NCBI GenBank assembly: GCA_913009765.1
Contig: CAJVYT010000138.1
Location: 1 to 9,943, forward strand
DNA length: 9,943 bases
Source: an uncultured candidate division Zixibacteria bacterium
Lineage (GTDB): Bacteria; Zixibacteria; MSB-5A5; GN15; FEB-12
Reading direction: 5' to 3'
Below are positions 1-9,943 of this stretch, piece after piece. Made by a program: the position numbers and the translations under genes. Within the stretch, counting starts at the first letter, position 1; each line of letters begins with the position of its first letter. The notes under the pieces were generated by a model. That model was not told where the DNA came from, made no database searches, and saw nothing but the letters and a program-made list of their open reading frames with translations.

Positions 1-471
1 ACTAATTTACAAGAAAAAATACTAAGATTAAAATATAATAGTTTGATGGATACTGTTTCAAATTCTCACATACAAGACATATCCACTAAGCCGAGTATGT
101 CTAACCGTAAGTATTGTCAACCATTGGGCAACTATTGGATTGATGTCAAACGAGAAGTTTATTCTGCATCATGCAAAGAAATACTGCAGTCAGGCAGATT
201 CTTTTTTTCACTTACATTTAAAGCCAAGCTAATCTGTATCTTTTATCCTATCTTAAATTTGTTTAATTCTGTACCGAAAAGTATCGTTCATAAATCATGG
301 AGTTTAAAAATATTGGGGCAATTAGCTTTCCTTCACAGTATAATAAACGATAAAAATAAGTATCTTAAAAAACTTGATAAAGCCAGAGAGTTTATTTTTT
401 CGACTAATAACAATGAACAGATTAATCCGCAACATACTCATACAAAATCTAAGGATGAAAATAATCTGTGA
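1..471 (+). CDS. C-terminal part of an unrecognised protein, 5' end outside the window
   Basis: The reading frame is open from the first base without a stop, so this is the 3' end of a longer gene; the in-frame TTG (43) and ATG (46) need not be starts. About 156 residues are visible. The middle has a moderately hydrophobic stretch rich in Phe, Leu and Ile (near FKAKLICIFYPILNLF), followed by a basic helix-like region and a polar tail rich in Asn, Gln, His and Lys. A membrane-proximal hydrophobic C-terminus occurs in some family 2 glycosyltransferases of polysaccharide loci, and the position just before a flippase gene would suit that, but I see no diagnostic motif. The stop codon overlaps the GTG start of the flippase gene by 4 nt (GTGA), indicating co-transcription and probable translational coupling. 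That the frame is coding is fairly sure; its function is unknown. Confidence 0.7.
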   Translation, partial: TNLQEKILRLKYNSLMDTVSNSHIQDISTKPSMSNRKYCQPLGNYWIDVKREVYSASCKEILQSGRFFFSLTFKAKLICIFYPILNLFNSVPKSIVHKSWSLKILGQLAFLHSIINDKNKYLKKLDKAREFIFSTNNNEQINPQHTHTKSKDENNL

Positions 472-1961
472 AGAAATCTCTTATTAGTGAATTAAAAGTT
501 ATCCTAAAACACTCCACGACCTATTCTATTGCTAATTTGTTGAGTCGAATGGTTTCATTTATAATGATTCCGATTTATACGAGATTTCTTACTCCGGCAG
601 ACTATGGAATTCTTGAACTGATTACCATTTCATTATCTATGCTGAGTATCGTTATATCCTCCGGTATCACAGATGCTGTCAGTAGGTTCTTTTTTGATTA
701 TAAAAATATCAAAGACAAAAATAAGGTAATTAGTGTTGGGCTGATAAGTTTCATAGCTTTGTCTGCTGTCTCTTTCGCATTCTTATCACCCATAAATGGA
801 TTTTTATCCAAAGTATTATTAGGTTCCTCTGAATACGGTTCCTTTCTTGTCATCGCCCTTGGATATATGTCATTAAGCTTTATTCTTGAATTGATTTTTG
901 CATATTTTCGGGTGACCCATCAATCCCTCAAACTCACGCTTTCAAACCTTGGCGGATTAGTTGTGAGCCTATCCTTTAATATATTATTTGTAGTTGTGCT
1001 TCAAATAGGAGTTAAAGGCATATTATTGGCAACGCTTATATCTCAATCTCTTCAGGTTATTGTTCTCTTACCAATGACTATCAAAACTGTAGGCTTTCGT
1101 TTTGATTTTTCTCTTTTTAAAGAAATGCTTTCATTCGGCTTTCCTATTATTTTCTCTCAAATTGGTCACAAGATAGTAAACCTTTCAGATAGATATTTTT
1201 TAAGGTCTTTTGCTTCATTAGCTGAGACAGGCTTATATTCGCTTGGATATAAACTAGGTCTTCTGGCAATTACTTTTGTCGGAGCTCCTTTTAATATGAT
1301 TTGGACACCTCGAAGATTTGAGTGTTTTGGAGATGAAGAAGCTGAGAATAATTTTTCACGAATATTTACATTATTTATTTTTGTAATTTCTTTAGTAGGG
1401 TTAATAATATCTATTCTTGCCAAAGATTTAACAAGACTTATCTTAGCCAAAGAGTTTTGGGAAAGCTATAAAGTGGTACCTATTATTACTCTGTCGTATA
1501 TCTTCCTCAGTTTTCATTCTCATTTTTCCATTGGGATTCTTATTAAGAAAAAAACAAAGCTGTTGGCAGGTATCAATATTGCAACAGCAATCTTAAATTT
1601 AATTCTTAATTATTTTCTTATCAAAACATATTCTATCTGGGGGGCTGCTGTTGCTACATTAATCAGTTTTATATTTAAACCATCCTTGTCATACTATTAT
1701 TCAAATAAAATTTATCCAATACAAATGGAAACAACAAATCTCATAAAAATTTTAGGTAGTGCCATTGTTATATATATTATAGGCTCGTTTGTTGAAACCA
1801 ATAATACTCTTTTGAATATAGGACTAAAAGGCTTCATCGGGCTAAGCTATGTATTGATATTATATGTAATGCATATTTTTACCAAAGAAGAAATTCAGAA
1901 ACTAAAAGATTTAATAAAAAAATTGATTGCTAAAATAAGTTTTGGAAAAACAAAAAAGTAG
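468..1961 (+). CDS. Wzx-like polysaccharide flippase (MOP superfamily)
   Basis: This 497-residue, very hydrophobic protein has about 12-14 predictable membrane segments and a Lys-rich cytoplasmic tail (about residues 470-497). The N-terminus has the hallmark of oligosaccharide/polysaccharide transporters: an amphipathic start, then a Ser/Arg-Met helix and the segment IPIYTRFLTPADYGILEL at about 36-53, which matches the family signature (P-x-x-TR-x-L-x-P-x-x-YG). Known members flip undecaprenyl-diphosphate-linked repeat units across the inner membrane. Length fits the family. The start is GTG at 468, inside the stop of the preceding gene, with a plausible ribosome site AAGGAT at 451-456, 11 nt upstream. 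The ATG at 455 is in another frame. The TAG stop directly abuts the stop of the convergent glycosyltransferase gene. A lipid II flippase-like role is possible but less likely in this context. Confidence 0.9.
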   Translation: MKKSLISELKVILKHSTTYSIANLLSRMVSFIMIPIYTRFLTPADYGILELITISLSMLSIVISSGITDAVSRFFFDYKNIKDKNKVISVGLISFIALSAVSFAFLSPINGFLSKVLLGSSEYGSFLVIALGYMSLSFILELIFAYFRVTHQSLKLTLSNLGGLVVSLSFNILFVVVLQIGVKGILLATLISQSLQVIVLLPMTIKTVGFRFDFSLFKEMLSFGFPIIFSQIGHKIVNLSDRYFLRSFASLAETGLYSLGYKLGLLAITFVGAPFNMIWTPRRFECFGDEEAENNFSRIFTLFIFVISLVGLIISILAKDLTRLILAKEFWESYKVVPIITLSYIFLSFHSHFSIGILIKKKTKLLAGINIATAILNLILNYFLIKTYSIWGAAVATLISFIFKPSLSYYYSNKIYPIQMETTNLIKILGSAIVIYIIGSFVETNNTLLNIGLKGFIGLSYVLILYVMHIFTKEEIQKLKDLIKKLIAKISFGKTKK

Positions 1962-3293
1962 TTACGGAGATAATACTTTATTTAAAATCTCTGCGAGTTT
2001 TTTGTTTTGTTCTTTTCTGTCATATTCAGCCGGTAAATCAAATTTAGAAATTCGTTCCTCTGACTGCTCTTTCCAATTTTGATACTGTAATTCTAAAAAT
2101 GTAATTGCTTTTTCTATATTTTCAGAAGTCACAGCAGTGCCTCGGTTATATTTTTCAATCGCATCAGCCGCCATACCTTCGGGAAGAAACCCTAATATTG
2201 GTCTTTTGGTACAAATATATTCATAGAGTTTGGCGGGCATAACATTTTTGCCGCCTTTATCAAAACCCAAAATGAGCAGAAGTAAATCTGATTCCCACAG
2301 CTTGGGAAGTATCTGTTTTTGCGGAATATGTTTTTCAAATTGTACAACTGATTCAATTTCAGTACCTACTAAAGACTTTTCATACCCCGGAGTATTACCG
2401 ATAAAGAGAACTCTGCAATTTTCTTTCACCTCTTTGTTTTGTGATACCCATGCCTGCATTACATCAAAAAAGAATTTTGGATTCCTATTGCCATATAAAG
2501 AACCAAGATGCAAAATTATGAATTTTTTATTCTTTGATTTTGGAAATTTAATATCTGTAAAATCATCAGCATCTACACCGTTTGTAACAGCTTGAAACTG
2601 TTCCTGTTTTTTATAGCTGTTATTTTCAAACAACGAATCAGAAAATCCGGTTGTGGCACTTACTATTGCCGATGCTCTTTTTATGGCACGTTTTTCATAA
2701 AACCTGTCAATTTTTTTATATAACCATGGAAGGTTACGATTATGGTACGATTCATTTTGTGTCCATAAATCACGGTAATCTATAACAAATGGTTTACCGG
2801 TAAGATATGAAAGAATTGTTCCTATAATATGGACTGTCGCAGGTGGTGAGGTTGATAGAATTATATCAAATTTTTCTTTTCTTGCTGCTTTCAATCCTTC
2901 AGCAACAGCAAACGGAATCCAAAAATTATGAATATCAGGGATTGAAATCATAGTTTTTATCTGTTTTTTTATTTTAGCTGAAAAAGATTCTGTCGTTTCT
3001 TCTGATTTTGTATTCTGTTGTGATGAGGACACTGTAGTTGAGTTTTCAGTTGGTTGTGTTTTACTGTCCCACCATTGTATAGGGGAAAAATATTTTGAAC
3101 GATATATTGGAAGGGAGGAATCAAGTTGTTTCAGACTCTCCTCATCATAGGCATAGTTAAACCCATCACGTACAGTTAACACAACCGGCTGCCATCCGAA
3201 TTGGGGAAGAAACTTACATGCTTTAACAACCCGAAAACCGCCGACCGCCGCCATAGGCGGAAATACATAAGATATTATCAATACTTTTTTCAT
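1962..3293 (-). CDS. GT4-type glycosyltransferase (GT-B fold)
   Basis: This 443-residue protein looks like a cytoplasmic retaining glycosyltransferase that would add a nucleotide-sugar-derived residue to a lipid-linked oligosaccharide. The N-terminal domain opens with a beta strand and FPPMAAVGGFR (11-21), the acceptor-side loop common in WbuB-like GT4 enzymes. It continues with STSPPATVH (147-155) and DYRDLW (172-177). The C-terminal domain has TNGVD (237-241), HLGSLYGNRNP (262-272) and PAKLYEYI (353-360), in which Glu359 is the probable nucleotide-sugar-binding glutamate; RPILGFLPEG (364-373) follows. Residues 79-104 form a Ser/Thr/Gln/Glu-rich, low-complexity linker. The ATG at 3293 is the first sensible start, although no clear Shine-Dalgarno sequence precedes it. 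It is the only glycosyltransferase I can identify here, and sugar specificity cannot be read from sequence. It ends base-to-base against the flippase gene and reads away from a divergent spacer shared with the VOC gene. Confidence 0.9.
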   Translation of the reverse strand: MKKVLIISYVFPPMAAVGGFRVVKACKFLPQFGWQPVVLTVRDGFNYAYDEESLKQLDSSLPIYRSKYFSPIQWWDSKTQPTENSTTVSSSQQNTKSEETTESFSAKIKKQIKTMISIPDIHNFWIPFAVAEGLKAARKEKFDIILSTSPPATVHIIGTILSYLTGKPFVIDYRDLWTQNESYHNRNLPWLYKKIDRFYEKRAIKRASAIVSATTGFSDSLFENNSYKKQEQFQAVTNGVDADDFTDIKFPKSKNKKFIILHLGSLYGNRNPKFFFDVMQAWVSQNKEVKENCRVLFIGNTPGYEKSLVGTEIESVVQFEKHIPQKQILPKLWESDLLLLILGFDKGGKNVMPAKLYEYICTKRPILGFLPEGMAADAIEKYNRGTAVTSENIEKAITFLELQYQNWKEQSEERISKFDLPAEYDRKEQNKKLAEILNKVLSP

Positions 3294-3369
3294 TTATATA
3301 CGACCATAAATTAACTCAGCACTTCAAAACAGGTTTTAATATTATTTCTACTACTCTTTTTTTCACTTC

Positions 3370-3397
3370 TTTATAAGAATATCGGAAATATTATGAA
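3370..3397 (-). promoter_or_regulatory. Weak candidate promoter for the GT4 gene
   Basis: On the minus strand TTCATA (3392-3397), a 16-nt spacer and TATAAA (3370-3375) resemble a sigma70 -35/-10 pair, which would give a leader of about 70 nt. The region is so AT-rich that a chance match is quite possible. Confidence 0.22.
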
Positions 3398-3438
3398 GAA
3401 TGCACATCAATAACAACTAAATATTATAAGAAAAATAG

Positions 3439-3467
3439 TTGAAAGAACTACAAAAAAGTAACATAAT
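3439..3467 (+). promoter_or_regulatory. Candidate sigma70-type promoter for the VOC gene
   Basis: TTGAAA (3439-3444) and CATAAT (3462-3467) are 17 nt apart, each one mismatch from the consensus. They lie about 58 nt upstream of the preferred ATG at 3526, leaving room for a short leader. The spacer between the divergent genes is AT-rich, so support is moderate. The rest of 3294-3525 shows no other clear feature apart from a weak minus-strand promoter candidate. Confidence 0.4.
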
Positions 3468-3511
3468 TGATATGTGCATAAACAACAGAGAATACTCTCA
3501 ATAAAGATAAT

Positions 3512-3517
3512 TGGAGA
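3512..3517 (+). promoter_or_regulatory. Ribosome binding site that fixes the VOC start
   Basis: The sequence TGGAGA contains GGAG at 3513-3516, 9 nt before ATG 3526. It overlaps the alternative TTG codon at 3511, so that codon cannot be served by it. This supports the shorter, 137-residue protein. Confidence 0.65.
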
Positions 3518-3525
3518 ATTACATA

Positions 3526-3939
3526 ATGATTATTGACCATATAGGAATTGTTGTAAAAGACATTGAAAAAGGTATAGAACATTGGGGAAATATTTTCGGC
3601 TATTCTCAAATGACAAAAATCGTAACTAACACCCGTCAAAAAGTGAAAGTTGTATTTTTAAAAAAAGAAAATTCTCTTGTAGTAAAACTTATCGAACCAA
3701 CTGCTGAAGATTCCCCTATTTTTCTGTTTGCCAAAAAAGGCGGAGGGCTGCATCATCTGTGCTTTAAATGCGATAATATGGATAAGCAGTTGGAGTTATT
3801 TACAGAACAAAAAATTCGTATTCTTGCAAAACCTCAGCCCGGCGAAGCATTTGAAAATGAAAATATAGCATTTCTATATGCCAAACATGGAATGAATATT
3901 GAATTGATAGATACCGACAAAAAAGCAGAGATACTATAA
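3526..3939 (+). CDS. VOC-superfamily protein resembling methylmalonyl-CoA epimerase
   Basis: This is a 137-residue vicinal-oxygen-chelate protein with two beta-alpha-beta-beta-beta modules. Visible landmarks are DHIGIVVKD (4-12), KLIEP (54-58), GLHHLCF (74-80) and IAFLYAKHGMNIELID (114-129), in the order and spacing of methylmalonyl-CoA epimerases. By that alignment the metal-ligand positions are His5, Lys54, His77 and Glu126. The second is normally Gln or Glu, so Lys54 may alter or abolish metal binding. I chose ATG 3526 because GGAG at 3513-3516 lies 9 nt upstream; an upstream in-frame TTG (3511) overlaps that ribosome site and would add MENYI. The protein is probably soluble and cytoplasmic. 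Its place among glycan genes argues against propionate metabolism. It could act on a sugar or acyl intermediate, but that is inference. Family call is strong, substrate unknown. Confidence 0.85.
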   Translation: MIIDHIGIVVKDIEKGIEHWGNIFGYSQMTKIVTNTRQKVKVVFLKKENSLVVKLIEPTAEDSPIFLFAKKGGGLHHLCFKCDNMDKQLELFTEQKIRILAKPQPGEAFENENIAFLYAKHGMNIELIDTDKKAEIL

Positions 3940-3940
3940 A

Positions 3941-4513
3941 TCAGCTCTCAGGACTGTCAGTTTCTTGTTTTTTCTCTCTTTTACCGATGAATCGGGCAGG
4001 ATTTCCTGCTAAGATTGAATAAGGGGGAAATTTTTTGGCACCGACAACAGCACCTGCGGAAACAATACTGCCATCTCCAAGCTCTGCTCCCGGCATAATA
4101 AAGACATTGGCACCAATCCAGACACGTTTTCCAATAACAACTTTCTTGTAATCATACCCTTGCTTATACACAGCAACTTCAGGATCATCAAATTTATGAT
4201 TTTGGCTCCACACACTCACCCCCGGTCCGAAACAGGTCTCATCGCCTATTTCAATACCGCCTCCGGCTTGATAAAAGTTGTCTACTCCTAAAATAACATT
4301 ATCACCGATTATCAATTTATCTATATTATTTATTCTGAGACCAATATCAACTTTAATATTTTCTCCAACAGAACCAAAACGTTTTGATAATACACTCTTT
4401 CTTATTGCCTCACCTGATTTACCCGGAAGATTTCGAATAAGAAAAAACCTCATCCGAAAACGACCTTCTTTGGTCAACATCTCACGAATTAATAATCTGA
4501 AAAAACGATACAT
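3941..4513 (-). CDS. Hexapeptide-repeat acyltransferase (left-handed beta helix, WbbJ/Maa-like)
   Basis: This 190-residue protein is a probable O-acetyltransferase or related acyltransferase that would use acetyl-CoA to modify a sugar hydroxyl of the glycan. After a basic, amphipathic N-terminus (1-40) come hexapeptide coils at about 48-95 and 116-155, with repeats such as LIIGDN, IEIGDE, VVIGKR and VWIGAN. They are interrupted by the loop WSQNHKFDDP (102-111), whose His106 matches the conserved catalytic histidine of the family. The C-terminal cap has ILAGNPARFIGKR (157-169), also typical. Length is normal. The ATG at 4513 has AAAAGG about 7 nt upstream on the minus strand. The gene converges on the VOC gene with a single base between the two stop codons. 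Substrate could be free serine or maltose in distant relatives, but glycan decoration fits this locus best. Confidence 0.88.
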   Translation of the reverse strand: MYRFFRLLIREMLTKEGRFRMRFFLIRNLPGKSGEAIRKSVLSKRFGSVGENIKVDIGLRINNIDKLIIGDNVILGVDNFYQAGGGIEIGDETCFGPGVSVWSQNHKFDDPEVAVYKQGYDYKKVVIGKRVWIGANVFIMPGAELGDGSIVSAGAVVGAKKFPPYSILAGNPARFIGKREKKQETDSPES

Positions 4514-4548
4514 AAATAACCTTTTTGTATGTTTTGATAAATGGTAAT

Positions 4549-4576
4549 TTTATATACGCAATATATCGACAGTAAA
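4549..4576 (-). promoter_or_regulatory. Weak candidate promoter for the acyltransferase gene
   Basis: On the minus strand TTTACT (4571-4576), 16 nt, TATAAA (4549-4554) would place transcription start about 40 nt before the ATG at 4513. The -10 matches 5 of 6 bases and the -35 only 4 of 6, in a very AT-rich spacer. Confidence 0.28.
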
Positions 4577-4712
4577 ACATAAAAATCAAGAGCAAACTAT
4601 TCTGTAATAAAATTTATGACAACCGGATTCTTTTAACAAACGTAAAAGAGGAAAAATTTTCTCATGTAATATCTTACAAGTGGTTTGATGATTTATATTT
4701 AGAATTCTCATC

Positions 4713-4739
4713 CATAAGCCGATAATACTTGACATAAGC
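4713..4739 (+). repeat. Direct repeat CATAAGC spaced 20 bp, overlapping a -35 box
   Basis: The 7-mer CATAAGC occurs at 4713-4719 and 4733-4739, its starts 20 bp apart, close to two helical turns. The second copy begins within the -35 hexamer of the promoter at 4729-4756. The arrangement is suitable for a dimeric regulator, but two 7-mers in AT-rich DNA can arise by chance. Confidence 0.25.
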
Positions 4740-4756
4740 GTAAGATAGGCTAAAAT
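4729..4756 (+). promoter_or_regulatory. Strong candidate sigma70-type promoter of the epimerase-ugd run
   Basis: A perfect TTGACA (4729-4734) is followed after 16 nt by TAAAAT (4751-4756), one mismatch from TATAAT. Transcription would start near 4763, about 27 nt before the ATG at 4790. It is the best promoter match in the window and sits ahead of the longest co-directional gene run. The remainder of the spacer from 4514 shows no other clear plus-strand signal. Confidence 0.55.
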
Positions 4757-4789
4757 TAGAGTAACTTCAAACTTAGAAAATATGGACAG

Positions 4790-5749
4790 ATGCTAAATTC
4801 TATTTGCATAACAGGCGGTGCCGGATTTATCGGTTCTCATGTAGTCGAAAGACTGCTTTCGGAAGGTCATACGGTCACAGTCATCGATAATTTTAATACT
4901 TTTTATGACCCGTTGATTAAACGACGAAATATTGAACCTTTTTTAGCAAATGAAAATTTCAAACTTTTTGAAACAGACACTAGAAATTCTGATGAAATAA
5001 ACAAAATATTTTCAGAAAATAATTTTGATGAACTGATTCACCTTGCTGCCATGGCAGGCGTGAGACCCTCAATAGAAAATCCTGTTTTATACAATGACAT
5101 AAACTTAATCGGAACAATGAATTTGCTTGAAGCGTGCCGTCATAACAAAATTACAAAGTTGATATTTGCATCATCTTCTTCGGTATACGGCAATAATAAA
5201 AAAGTACCATTTTCAGAGTCTGACCCGGTAGATAACCCAATTTCACCCTACGCCTCTACAAAAAAATCAGGGGAACTTATGGTCTATACCTATCATCATT
5301 TGTATAATATCAAGTCTGCATGTTTACGCTTTTTTACTGTCTACGGACCAAAGCAGAGACCTGAAATGGCAATTCATCTGTTTACCGATAAAATTTATAA
5401 TGGTGAAGAAATCCAAATGTTTGGAGACGGCGGTTCAAAAAGAGATTATACGTCTGTTGATGATATTGTTGACGGTATTTTAAGCTGTCGAACGGCTGAA
5501 TATGACTATGAAGTGTTTAATCTTGGAAGGTCTGATACAATCAAACTTTCTGAGTTAATTAAAAAGATTGAAAATAAATTAGGGAAAAAAGCACTTATTA
5601 AGAGACTTAAACAACAACCGGGAGATGTAGATCAAACATTTGCCGATATTTCCAAAGCTAAAAAGATTTTACATTACAACCCAAAAGTTTCGATTGATGA
5701 CGGGTTGGATCAATTTATAAATTGGTATTTACAAACAAAGGGTAATTAA
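4790..5749 (+). CDS. UDP-glucuronate 4-epimerase-like SDR enzyme
   Basis: This 319-residue extended short-chain dehydrogenase/reductase has GGAGFIG (9-15) for NAD binding, Asp33 to hold the adenosine ribose, SSSSVYG (128-134), and the catalytic pair Tyr154/Lys158 in YASTK. FYDPLIKRRN (38-47), MAGVRPSIENP (88-98) and VYGPKQRPEMAI are characteristic of the GAE/CapI subgroup, which interconverts UDP-glucuronate and UDP-galacturonate through a 4-keto intermediate. Next to a UDP-glucose dehydrogenase gene, that activity is the obvious reading, though UDP-GlcNAc or UDP-glucose 4-epimerases are close relatives. Only a weak GGA precedes ATG 4790; an ATG at 4782 is in another frame that closes at once. 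The stop codon is immediately followed by the ATG of the next gene, so the two are almost surely one operon. Confidence 0.9.
   Translation: MLNSICITGGAGFIGSHVVERLLSEGHTVTVIDNFNTFYDPLIKRRNIEPFLANENFKLFETDTRNSDEINKIFSENNFDELIHLAAMAGVRPSIENPVLYNDINLIGTMNLLEACRHNKITKLIFASSSSVYGNNKKVPFSESDPVDNPISPYASTKKSGELMVYTYHHLYNIKSACLRFFTVYGPKQRPEMAIHLFTDKIYNGEEIQMFGDGGSKRDYTSVDDIVDGILSCRTAEYDYEVFNLGRSDTIKLSELIKKIENKLGKKALIKRLKQQPGDVDQTFADISKAKKILHYNPKVSIDDGLDQFINWYLQTKGN
5737..5742 (+). promoter_or_regulatory. Ribosome binding site of the UDP-glucose dehydrogenase gene
   Basis: AAAGGG lies inside the last codons of the epimerase gene, 7 nt before ATG 5750. It confirms this start and supports tight translational linkage of the two enzymes. 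Confidence 0.6.
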
Positions 5750-7057
5750 ATGAATATTTGTGTCGTAGGCACCGGCTATGTTGGTTTGGTAGCAGGAACC
5801 TGTCTTTCAGATTTTGGCATGCATGTAATATGCGTTGACAAAGATAAATCAAAAATTGATATGTTAAATAACGGTGATGTACCTATTTATGAAATAGGTC
5901 TCAAGGAATTGATTGCACGAAATGTCAAATTGGAACGACTCAGTTTTACTACAGATTTTAAAAACACTATCAATCGTTCACTCTGCATTTTTTTAGGTGT
6001 CGGTACACCGGAAAATAAAGATGGTACTGCTAATTTACAATATATTTTCGATGTATGTGATGAAATAGCCGATACAATGAATGACTACAAAGTAATTGTT
6101 ATCAAAAGTACAGTACCTGTCGGTACCGCCCAAACATTAAGAAAACGGATAAAAGAACGTCTTAAAAAAGATATAGATTTTGATATTGTTTCAAACCCTG
6201 AATTCCTCCGTGAAGGTTCTGCTGTAAATGATTTCTTAAGACCTGACAGAGTAGTGATTGGTTCTAAATCTGAAAAAGCATTGGCAATTGTTCGCGATAT
6301 ATACCGCCCTCTGTATTTACTTGAGACTCCGATAGTCAGTACCTCAAACGAGACCGCCGAACTGATAAAATATGCATCAAATACAATGCTTGCCTTGAAA
6401 ATTTCATTTATCAATGAAATGGCAAATCTCTGCGACAAAGTCGGAGGTGATGTCTATCAAGTTGCCACTGCGATGGGAATGGATAAACGTATCGGGTCTA
6501 AATTTTTACATCCCGGTCCCGGCTACGGCGGTTCCTGTTTCCCAAAAGATGTTTCTGCTTTGGCAAAAGTATCCGATTCTTTTGGCTATGATTTTAAAAT
6601 CTCAAAAGCTATTTTAGAAGTAAATGCTCTCCAAAAAGAAAATGTAGTCAAAAAATCTGAAAAGATGCTTGGAACACTCAAAGGCAAAACAATCTGCCTG
6701 CTTGGGTTAGCATTTAAACCAAATACCGATGATATCCGTGAGGCACCGGCATTATATGCTGCCAAAAGGATGATGGAAGAAGGGGCGACTATCAATGCCT
6801 ATGACCCTATTGCCATGGATGAAGCAAAAAAAGAAATCAAAGGTATCAATTATTTTAATGATGCCTATGCTGCTTGTACAAAAGCCGATTTAGTTATTAT
6901 TATGACTGAATGGAATGAGTTTAGAGATTTACATTTTGACCGTATTAAAGAACAAATGAATGAATTCAATGTATATGACACAAGAAATATTTATAACGCA
7001 AAAACAATACGTGAGTTCGGTTTTAACTATATCTGTACCGGAAGACCGGTAGAGTAG
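5750..7057 (+). CDS. ugd: UDP-glucose 6-dehydrogenase
   Basis: This 435-residue enzyme would oxidise UDP-glucose to UDP-glucuronate with two NAD+, in the cytoplasm. The N-terminal Rossmann domain begins GTGYVGLVAGTCL (7-19), with Asp30 as the NAD-ribose contact. STVPVGT (120-126) and NPEFLREGSAVNDF (149-162) are hallmarks, the latter holding catalytic Glu152. Lys207 lies in the linking helix. GPGYGGSCFPKD (256-267) carries the nucleophilic Cys263 and Asp267. A C-terminal UDP-binding domain opens with LLGLAFKPNTDDIREAP. All key residues are present and the length is typical of bacterial single-chain enzymes (TuaD/Ugd type). UDP-mannose and UDP-GlcNAc dehydrogenases are related, but the motif set favours glucose. 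The ATG directly abuts the epimerase stop with a good ribosome site, so the pair would produce UDP-glucuronate and then UDP-galacturonate as precursors for the glycan. Confidence 0.95.
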   Translation: MNICVVGTGYVGLVAGTCLSDFGMHVICVDKDKSKIDMLNNGDVPIYEIGLKELIARNVKLERLSFTTDFKNTINRSLCIFLGVGTPENKDGTANLQYIFDVCDEIADTMNDYKVIVIKSTVPVGTAQTLRKRIKERLKKDIDFDIVSNPEFLREGSAVNDFLRPDRVVIGSKSEKALAIVRDIYRPLYLLETPIVSTSNETAELIKYASNTMLALKISFINEMANLCDKVGGDVYQVATAMGMDKRIGSKFLHPGPGYGGSCFPKDVSALAKVSDSFGYDFKISKAILEVNALQKENVVKKSEKMLGTLKGKTICLLGLAFKPNTDDIREAPALYAAKRMMEEGATINAYDPIAMDEAKKEIKGINYFNDAYAACTKADLVIIMTEWNEFRDLHFDRIKEQMNEFNVYDTRNIYNAKTIREFGFNYICTGRPVE

Positions 7058-7075
7058 AAATATTTTAATATTGTG

Positions 7076-8452
7076 ATGGATATTCTCAAACCGATAGCAA
7101 AGTATTTTTTAGATCCGCTTTTAGCGTTTTATGAAAACAGCTCACATCCAACATACTTGGAAGAGTTTGAAAAAACACAGTATATGACAAAAGAAAAAAT
7201 TGCTGAACGGCAATTTTTTCTTTTAAAAAACCTTCTCTCTCATGCTTACCGAAACTGTCAATTCTACACAGAAAGCTTTGACAAAGCAGGGTTTCATCCT
7301 AATGATTTCAAAACTTTAGAAGATATAAAAAAAATACCCTTTTTGACAAAACAAGATATACAGCAACATCTCAAACAACTCAGAGCAGTCAATTACAAGG
7401 ATAATCAACTTTTGTTAAACCAAACCGGAGGCTCTACCGGCTCACCTCTCAAATTCTATGTCGATAGAGAAAGACTACACTCCCGCAAAGCATCCACATT
7501 CCGCCATGATAGATGGGCTGGCTGGGATATTGGAGTCAAGATAGCAGTTCTTTGGGGACATCAAAAAGATTTTCTTCCTCAGCAAAATTGGAAGAATAAA
7601 ATTAGAGATGACTACTATGAAAGAAAACTTTTTTTGGACACTTCACATATTACCGCCGAAAGAATGACATCATTTGTAAAACAGTTACAAACATTTCAAC
7701 CGGAAATTTATCTGGCATATGCCAATTCTATGTATCTGTACGCCCGCTATATTAAAGAAAATTGTATTTCTGACTATAACCGTCCAAAAGCAATTATTAC
7801 ATCTGCTGAAGTTCTCACACCGGAACAGAGAAAAATAATCGAAGAAGTATTTGACTGCAAAGTATTCAACCGTTACGGATGCCGTGAAACAAGTATAATC
7901 GCATCAGAATGTTCAGCACATAATGGCATGCATATCTCATCGGAAACACTGTATCTTGAATTTCAGCAAAAGGAAAAAGATGTTGCAGCAGATGAAACCG
8001 GTAAAATTATTATAACTGATTTGCTCAATTACGGCATGCCGCTAATTAGATACCAAATTGAAGATGCCGGTATCCCTCTTAAAGGCGACTGTCCCTGCGG
8101 TCGAACATTACCCCGTATGGATATTTCAGGCGGAAGAGTGACTGACTTTTTGGTAACATCGGAGCGAAAAGTTATTTCGGGAGCATCAATGACTATCTAC
8201 TTTATGGCGGTCATTGAAGGAATCGCACAAGCTCAAATAATTCAAAATTTAGTTGATGAGTTAACCCTGAGAATTGTAAAAAGTAGGTTGTTCTCAGCAG
8301 CAACTGAAAAAGAGATACAACAAAAAGTGTCTGAATATTTTGGAACTGCCATGAAATACCGTATTGAATATACCGACAAAATAGAGTCAACAAAATCGGG
8401 AAAATACAGGTTTTCAATTTCCTATATAGACCCAATGGAATTTTTAAGCTGA
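7076..8452 (+). CDS. CapK/PaaK-like adenylate-forming enzyme of a polysaccharide locus
   Basis: This protein of about 458 residues belongs to the ANL superfamily, near phenylacetate-CoA ligase and CapK. Numbering from the upstream GTG at 7073: the phosphate-binding loop TGGSTGSPLKF is at 118-128, SAE at 244-246, NRYGCRE (266-272) matches the A5-type core motif, and TDLLNYGMPLIRYQIED (315-331) carries the ATP-ribose Asp and Arg region. Cys280 with His287 and CPCGR (340-344) resemble the zinc-binding cysteines of some PaaK-like proteins. Such enzymes activate a carboxylate as an acyl-adenylate; the substrate of CapK-type members in capsule loci is not established to my knowledge. It starts 18 nt after ugd. 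I prefer ATG 7076 to the adjacent GTG 7073, but neither has a clear ribosome site. Given two uronate enzymes upstream, activation of a carboxyl group linked to the glycan is an attractive but unproven idea. Confidence 0.85.
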   Translation: MDILKPIAKYFLDPLLAFYENSSHPTYLEEFEKTQYMTKEKIAERQFFLLKNLLSHAYRNCQFYTESFDKAGFHPNDFKTLEDIKKIPFLTKQDIQQHLKQLRAVNYKDNQLLLNQTGGSTGSPLKFYVDRERLHSRKASTFRHDRWAGWDIGVKIAVLWGHQKDFLPQQNWKNKIRDDYYERKLFLDTSHITAERMTSFVKQLQTFQPEIYLAYANSMYLYARYIKENCISDYNRPKAIITSAEVLTPEQRKIIEEVFDCKVFNRYGCRETSIIASECSAHNGMHISSETLYLEFQQKEKDVAADETGKIIITDLLNYGMPLIRYQIEDAGIPLKGDCPCGRTLPRMDISGGRVTDFLVTSERKVISGASMTIYFMAVIEGIAQAQIIQNLVDELTLRIVKSRLFSAATEKEIQQKVSEYFGTAMKYRIEYTDKIESTKSGKYRFSISYIDPMEFLS

Positions 8453-8517
8453 TTTTTTTATAGTTCGTATAAAAGCATTTGCGTATATTACAAAAAAGAT
8501 AAAAAAAATAATAAAAT

Positions 8518-9860
8518 ATGCATAACTCATCAAAAAATATTATAACTCACAGACATCTTTTTTATATAGCTGTCATCGTTATTTCTATAGCTTCCGGTTT
8601 TGCTGTGACTCTTACTCCTCCATATAATTTGATTCCTTTTGGTGTCATCTTAGGTGCGGTATTGTTATTCACTATTTTTAAATATCCAATGGTTGGTGTA
8701 TATGTATATATGTTTATATTTTTCTTCCGCCCGCAAGAATGGACACCAATACAACTCCCCTATGAAAAAACAATTGCCCTGATGATTATAATGACGTTAT
8801 TGATGCACATAACTATCAGAGATAAAAAATTTGATCTCTTTTTAATTGATAAAGCTTTCTTATCATTTATGGCGGTTTGTTTTATCTCTATTTTATTTTC
8901 AGGAGATTTTCAATATTCGTGGGATAACTTTTTTCTCTTTTTCAAAATCTTTTTAGTGTATGTCTTTGCATCCCGTATTGCCAATACTCCTAAACGTTTT
9001 AATGCAATCGTTTGGTTGTTTATTCTTTCACAAATCTTTTTGGCGGTCACAACTACATATTATTATTATACCGGCGGAGCACGGTACAGTATGGGGATTA
9101 CCCGTGCTGTCGGTTTAGCCGGAGCAGAAGGTGCTTATTCCGATCCCAACTCGGTCGCCAATTCATTAGTTTTGGGTATTCCCTTCTTCTTTTTTCTTAT
9201 TAAGTATTACAAGTCAACATTGGTAAAAATTCTTCTTGTATCTAGTTTAGGAATTACTTTTTGGACAATAATCATTACCGGTTCACGAGGCGGTATGGTT
9301 GGCGTTATTCTTGTTGCTATGCTTTTAGCATACACAACAAAATATCGAACTATTTCAATTGTTGGTGCATTTGCCATGCTTGCAATATTTATCGCTTTTA
9401 TGCCGAGTCAGGACAGAGAACGATTTGCCACTATTTTCAAAATATATGAAAAAGACAATACCGGTGCCGCTGAATCTGCACAAGGACGAATTGATGGTCT
9501 AGTAAAAGGTTTTGTTTTTATGACACAAAAACCTATCTTTGGATGTGGTATTGGAAGTTTCAAATGGGAAAATCGCCATCAGTATGGAATATGGCTGGAT
9601 GCCCATAACTTACTTGGTAAATTAATGGGAGAACTTGGGATAATGGGACTTTTGACATTTGGGTTTTTCTTATATGTTCTATTTAAAACTATTCAAATGT
9701 TAAAATATCTTTACCATAAATATAAATGGGAATATAACTTTGAGCGGGCATTGATTGACGCTGTTTTATACTCATTAATTATGCTTTTATTTCAAGGACT
9801 TATTGGACACAACCTGTTTCGGTTTAACTGGTATATTAATGCCTGTTTTGTTGTTATTAT
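8518..9860 (+). CDS. O-antigen ligase/polymerase-type membrane protein, 3' end lost to adapter
   Basis: About 447 genuine residues form an inner-membrane protein with roughly 10-12 membrane segments. Features of the Wzy/WaaL O-antigen ligase family are FFRPQEWTP after the second or third helix (69-77), DPN (209-211), ITGSRGG (253-259) with Arg257, a periplasmic loop at about 297-360 containing QGRIDG, and DAHNLLGKLMGELG (361-374) with the conserved His363. Members transfer or polymerise undecaprenyl-linked glycans in the periplasm. The RPQEW start recalls ligases linked to exosortase-type loci, but no exosortase is visible. The stop at 9880-9882 lies in Illumina adapter, so the last residues DRKSVV are artificial and the true C-terminus is missing. 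ATG 8518 follows an A-rich leader without a Shine-Dalgarno sequence. A 65-bp gap separates it from the CapK-like gene, which may allow a separate promoter. Polymerase versus ligase cannot be decided. Confidence 0.87.
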
Positions 9861-9918
9861 AGATCGGAAGAGCGTCGTGTAGGGAAAGAGTGTAGATCTC
9901 GGTGGTCGCCGTATCATT
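9861..9918. other. Illumina TruSeq adapter sequence (technical contamination)
   Basis: All 58 bases match the reverse complement of the Illumina TruSeq universal adapter, beginning AGATCGGAAGAGCGTCGTGT and ending CGCCGTATCATT. This is library DNA left on the contig end, not genomic sequence. It supplies the false stop codon of the preceding membrane-protein gene. Confidence 0.98.
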
Positions 9919-9943
9919 AAAAAAAAAAAGACGACAAAAAACA
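9919..9943. other. Poly-A-rich read-through tail after the adapter
   Basis: Eleven A residues (9919-9929) followed by more A-rich sequence continue past the adapter end. Sequencers give this kind of low-information tail when a read runs beyond the adapter-ligated fragment. It should be treated as artefact. Confidence 0.85.

Follow-up and report, generated by a model that had tools for sequence, protein, structure and literature searches.

Where does the genome stop and the sequencing reagent begin at the right end of this contig? The window, that is, the whole stretch of 9,943 nucleotides analyzed here, had been described in the initial annotation as carrying 58 bases of Illumina adapter near its end, to be trimmed at 9860, with everything beyond that point false. 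The adapter is confirmed, and the artefact extends beyond those 58 bases to the final 83 bases, 9861-9943. This is a commonplace error of assembly, of a kind already known, with no biological meaning, and is not a biological feature. The features concerned are as follows.

8518..9860, + strand: authentic portion of a gene resembling O-antigen ligase (Wzy_C, PF04932), cut short where the contig stops
9861..9918, - strand: TruSeq Universal Adapter, 58 nt, exact 58/58 match, technical contamination
9919..9943, no strand assigned: run-off tail, technical contamination, made up of A11 and 14 A-rich noise bases, with no in-register counterpart in three relatives

An exact adapter at the contig end

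Compared letter by letter, 9861-9918 agrees with the reverse complement of the TruSeq Universal Adapter at 58 of 58 positions; the 5' to 3' sense of the adapter is on the - strand, and the + strand reads as its reverse complement. The letters of this adapter are printed in Table 3 of one paper (PMC12005410) and in the methods of another (PMC4658132). With line-break spaces stripped from both, the table and the methods text give the same 58 letters, and these are the reverse complement of 9861-9918, which bears out the identity first assigned to the stretch. Simple arithmetic puts the expected number of chance exact 58-base matches in 10 kb at about 2 x 10^4 / 4^58, which is negligible. Within the window, the 13-base core AGATCGGAAGAGC has a single occurrence when up to two mismatches are allowed. 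No further copy of the initial ten bases of the P5-side or P7-side adapter is present on either strand of the window, and the left end of the window is without any 5-12 base end of the reverse complement of either adapter.

The position of the match is equally plain. Its last base is 25 bases short of the final base of the window, and the contig given for the window's own protein (P0001) has 9943 bases, which is the full extent of the window. Compared with TruSeq read-through on the P5 side, the window has the same 58 bases in order, the insert-side A at 9861 and then an A run, with no difference in sequence.

The ligase gene continues differently in its relatives

The open reading frame listed at 8518-9882 belongs to the Wzy_C, O-antigen ligase family (PF04932), which it matches with 55.8 bits against a curated cut-off of 31.7. 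Its listed stop at 9882 and the six C-terminal residues, DRKSVV, are encoded by the adapter. A search of about 5.8 billion proteins, with 8000 candidates scored, listed 66 proteins including P0001, and the first 17 of these, again including P0001, were taken as alignment rows. All 16 relatives in this alignment run on past the junction with other C-termini, and in none of the 16 is DRKSVV found at this point. One of the listed proteins, P0010, has 288 residues and comes from a separate contig of 9332 bases, which probably belongs to the strain of the window. It is identical to the ligase-like protein of the window over residues 192-448 of the latter; after residue 448 it reads TTIVNDRIEQEKQKSDADNIEIPDLIGNDNI (31 residues), whereas the window reads DRKSVV and a stop. 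Since the C-terminus of P0010 differs, the junction is established without recourse to the adapter sequence.

The same break is seen in the DNA. Scanning genomes with P0002 yielded four loci, three titled Candidatus Zixiibacteriota (L058-L060) and one titled Calditrichaeota (L061). The alignments of the window with the first three stop at 9861 and that with the fourth at 9860; this one-base ambiguity is expected because 9861 is A both in the adapter and in the codon ATA of the three close relatives. In fixed register, identity to L058, L059 and L060 is 205/260, 218/260 and 189/260 over 9601-9860 (73-84%), and 13/58, 15/58 and 11/58 over 9861-9918 (19-26%). Thus all three close DNA-level relatives align up to 9861 and diverge afterwards. 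The adapter was not found in the four fetched loci, where an ungapped comparison of the 58-mer with both strands reaches 30/58 at most.

These comparisons bear on the idea that the adapter-like stretch belongs to the genome, for instance as part of a construct with P5/read-1 primer sites that was engineered or became integrated. The exact adapter sequence does occur in the contig, and stretches of the P7 end are found well inside five viral-database records (IMG/VR L064, L069, L090, L106 and L150), as such a construct would allow. However, P0010, with its identical residues 192-448, and the three relatives continue the ligase gene without the adapter, the relatives are titled metagenome-assembled Zixiibacteriota and not engineered organisms, and the 58-mer is followed by a run-off tail like that at other contig ends. 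Genomic origin of the 58-mer is in effect refuted by P0010, and a construct of this kind is to be considered vanishingly improbable.

The reading as adapter contamination is therefore supported: an exact adapter is present with 25 bases left before the contig ends, and right after 9860/9861 the real gene reads differently. The trim point at 9860 holds, since the relatives show the real gene going on differently from there, and so does the falsity of the sequence past it, which P0010 and the Zixiibacteriota loci continue otherwise. No counter-evidence to adapter contamination was found in the comparisons made. The protein set searched includes P0001, the truncated ligase of this contig, complete with its six-residue adapter-coded C-terminus, and any annotation of the C-terminus of this gene, or of the final 83 bases, is wrong. 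The contig should be trimmed at 9860, which also removes the false stop; the relevance of this is data hygiene only. A literature search for the adapter-encoded peptides RSEERRV, DRKSVV and IGRASC matched IGRASC alone, with nothing apparently relevant in the portions of text returned.

The run-off tail and its counterparts in other collections

The 25 bases at 9919-9943, AAAAAAAAAAAGACGACAAAAAACA, consist of A11 followed by GACGACAAAAAACA (14 bases, A-rich). They belong to the same artefact as the adapter, and they fit a read that passed the adapter, entered the T linker of the flow-cell primer and then ran off the template. Illumina's own surface primers carry such a T linker. Surface primers of matching sequence are described as bearing a 10-T spacer in one paper (PMC11123353).

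When IMG/VR was scanned for exact copies, the 58-mer turned up in 57 stretches (L001-L057) with 58 matches, and the letter-reversed 58-mer, used as a control, in 0 stretches. All 58 matches are no more than 150 bases away from one end of the stretch that was fetched. Whole contigs make up 46 of the 57 stretches and bear 47 of the matches; the other 11 stretches are pieces of longer contigs, so that the stretch end is merely presumed to be a contig end in them. On the tail side, the adapter is followed by no more than 20 bases in 52 of the 58 matches, by 21-150 in five and by 14,307 in one (L007); in whole contigs alone the figures are 42/47, 4/47 and 1/47 (more than 150). In L007 the tail points inward, with 116 bases on the opposite side. 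The insert-side bases flanking the 58-mer vary among the records, as they do when the adapter is joined to unrelated DNA.

Tails in these records share the A run. Among tails of at least one base, 53 of 54 start with A, and among those of at least 10 bases, 34 of 36 open with at least 10 A. The two exceptions are L043, with six A and then TACA, and L057, with T, eight A and then G only. In seven tails the sequence extends past a run of at least 10 A, and the run is 10-14 long in them. Thus the IMG/VR stretches and the window have in common the same exact 58-mer near a stretch end and an adjoining A run of about 10. The window keeps 14 noise bases past the A run, whereas most IMG/VR tails (49/58, of which four are empty) stop inside or before it; L008, L009, L013, L015 and L053 keep mixed bases past the run, like the window. 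In a megablast search of annotated collections, the 83-base tail gave partial matches in 24 phage records and one plasmid record, and no match to E. coli genomes at megablast sensitivity.

Another possibility is that the adapter is artefactual but 9919-9943 is genomic DNA on its far side, so that the adapter would stand between two genomic pieces. L007, with 14 kb of assembled sequence past its adapter, offers a precedent. Against this, the tail of the window opens with 11 A, in line with the long IMG/VR tails above, and it has no in-register counterpart in the three relatives, to which 19/83, 24/83 and 23/83 positions are identical over 9861-9943. Genomic DNA on the far side is accordingly very improbable.

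The run-off reading is preferred, and its best form takes A11 as copied from the 10-T linker of the flow-cell primer, plus A calls. That the A run beside the adapter is a copy of this linker, and not mere dark-cycle base calling, is probable. If true, the adapter together with A10 at the end of a contig would serve as a technical fingerprint of read orientation and of run-off from the template, and would make a more specific screen than one for the adapter by itself.

The 57 IMG/VR stretches come from 22 data sets, and 38 of them from the seven commonest. Such recurrence of adapter contigs within data sets makes the worry over the window's data set, raised in the initial annotation, reasonable, though it says nothing direct on that data set. 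It is plausible that other contigs of the window's own data set are also affected.

The P7-side adapter in IMG/VR

The end of the P7-side adapter followed by A10, sought as a single pattern, is present in at least 120 IMG/VR stretches with at least 121 matches. Among the 121 matches listed, 79 have at most 20 bases beyond, 36 have 21-250 and six have more; 115 of the 121 listed thus have at most 250 bases beyond, an end preference as for the P5-side 58-mer. The pattern included the A run, and these counts are therefore no test of the A run itself.

Some of the matches depart from the contig ends. In L064, L069, L090, L106 and L150, among the matches listed, P7 end plus A10 comes no closer than 591 bases to either end of the stretch that was fetched. 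These five, in which more than 500 bases lie to each side, indicate that adapter sequence can also be buried inside assembled contigs. In L149, 6585 bases lie past the P7 tail and just 64 on the opposite side. The viral contig L007 has, at 14200-14365, P7 end plus A10, about 80 bases, and then a T run with the full P5 adapter; this is apparently two run-off tails assembled together.

Proposed origin of the final 83 bases

It is practically certain that the final 83 bases come from an un-trimmed Illumina read of a short insert, used by the assembler to extend the contig. The read would have been longer than its insert, which would end at 9860, and the adapter would have been left untrimmed. The read, or its reverse complement, would cross the insert and then, at 9861-9918, the P5-side TruSeq Universal Adapter in reverse complement. 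After the adapter would come a copy of the T linker of the surface primer, from which the A run would thus derive, and beyond the linker the read would be off template and give noise bases. The assembler would then have extended the contig with this non-genomic 3' part.

A P5-side reverse complement following the insert is what is expected in read 2, and the source read was presumably a read 2. The noise is A-rich rather than G-rich, from which we infer a four-color instrument. The 83-base end is probably supported by few reads.

The genes left of the junction

The remainder of the window, 1-9860, is a polysaccharide-type gene cluster, in which several family matches are below curated cut-offs; its similarity to L058-L060 points to a probable Candidatus Zixiibacteriota. 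It has genes for a Wzx-like flippase, a glycosyltransferase, a glyoxalase/methylmalonyl-CoA-epimerase-like protein, a hexapeptide acyltransferase, an NAD-sugar epimerase, a protein of the UDP-glucose dehydrogenase family, a PaaK-like adenylate-forming protein and the O-antigen ligase. The VOC-fold gene (methylmalonyl-CoA-epimerase-like) at 3526-3939 has a counterpart in L058, 80% identical and in the corresponding position, and was not found in L059, where the genes downstream of it match.

The ORF at 1-471 gave no match, but the sequence fetched for L058 and for L059 stops close to this position. The left block, 1-1961, is unlike the relatives in that the flippase has the opposite orientation relative to the glycosyltransferase. 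The flippase in this block is just 38-41% identical to those of L059 and L058, against 77-93% for the neighboring genes found there. The block is perhaps a replaced flippase cassette.
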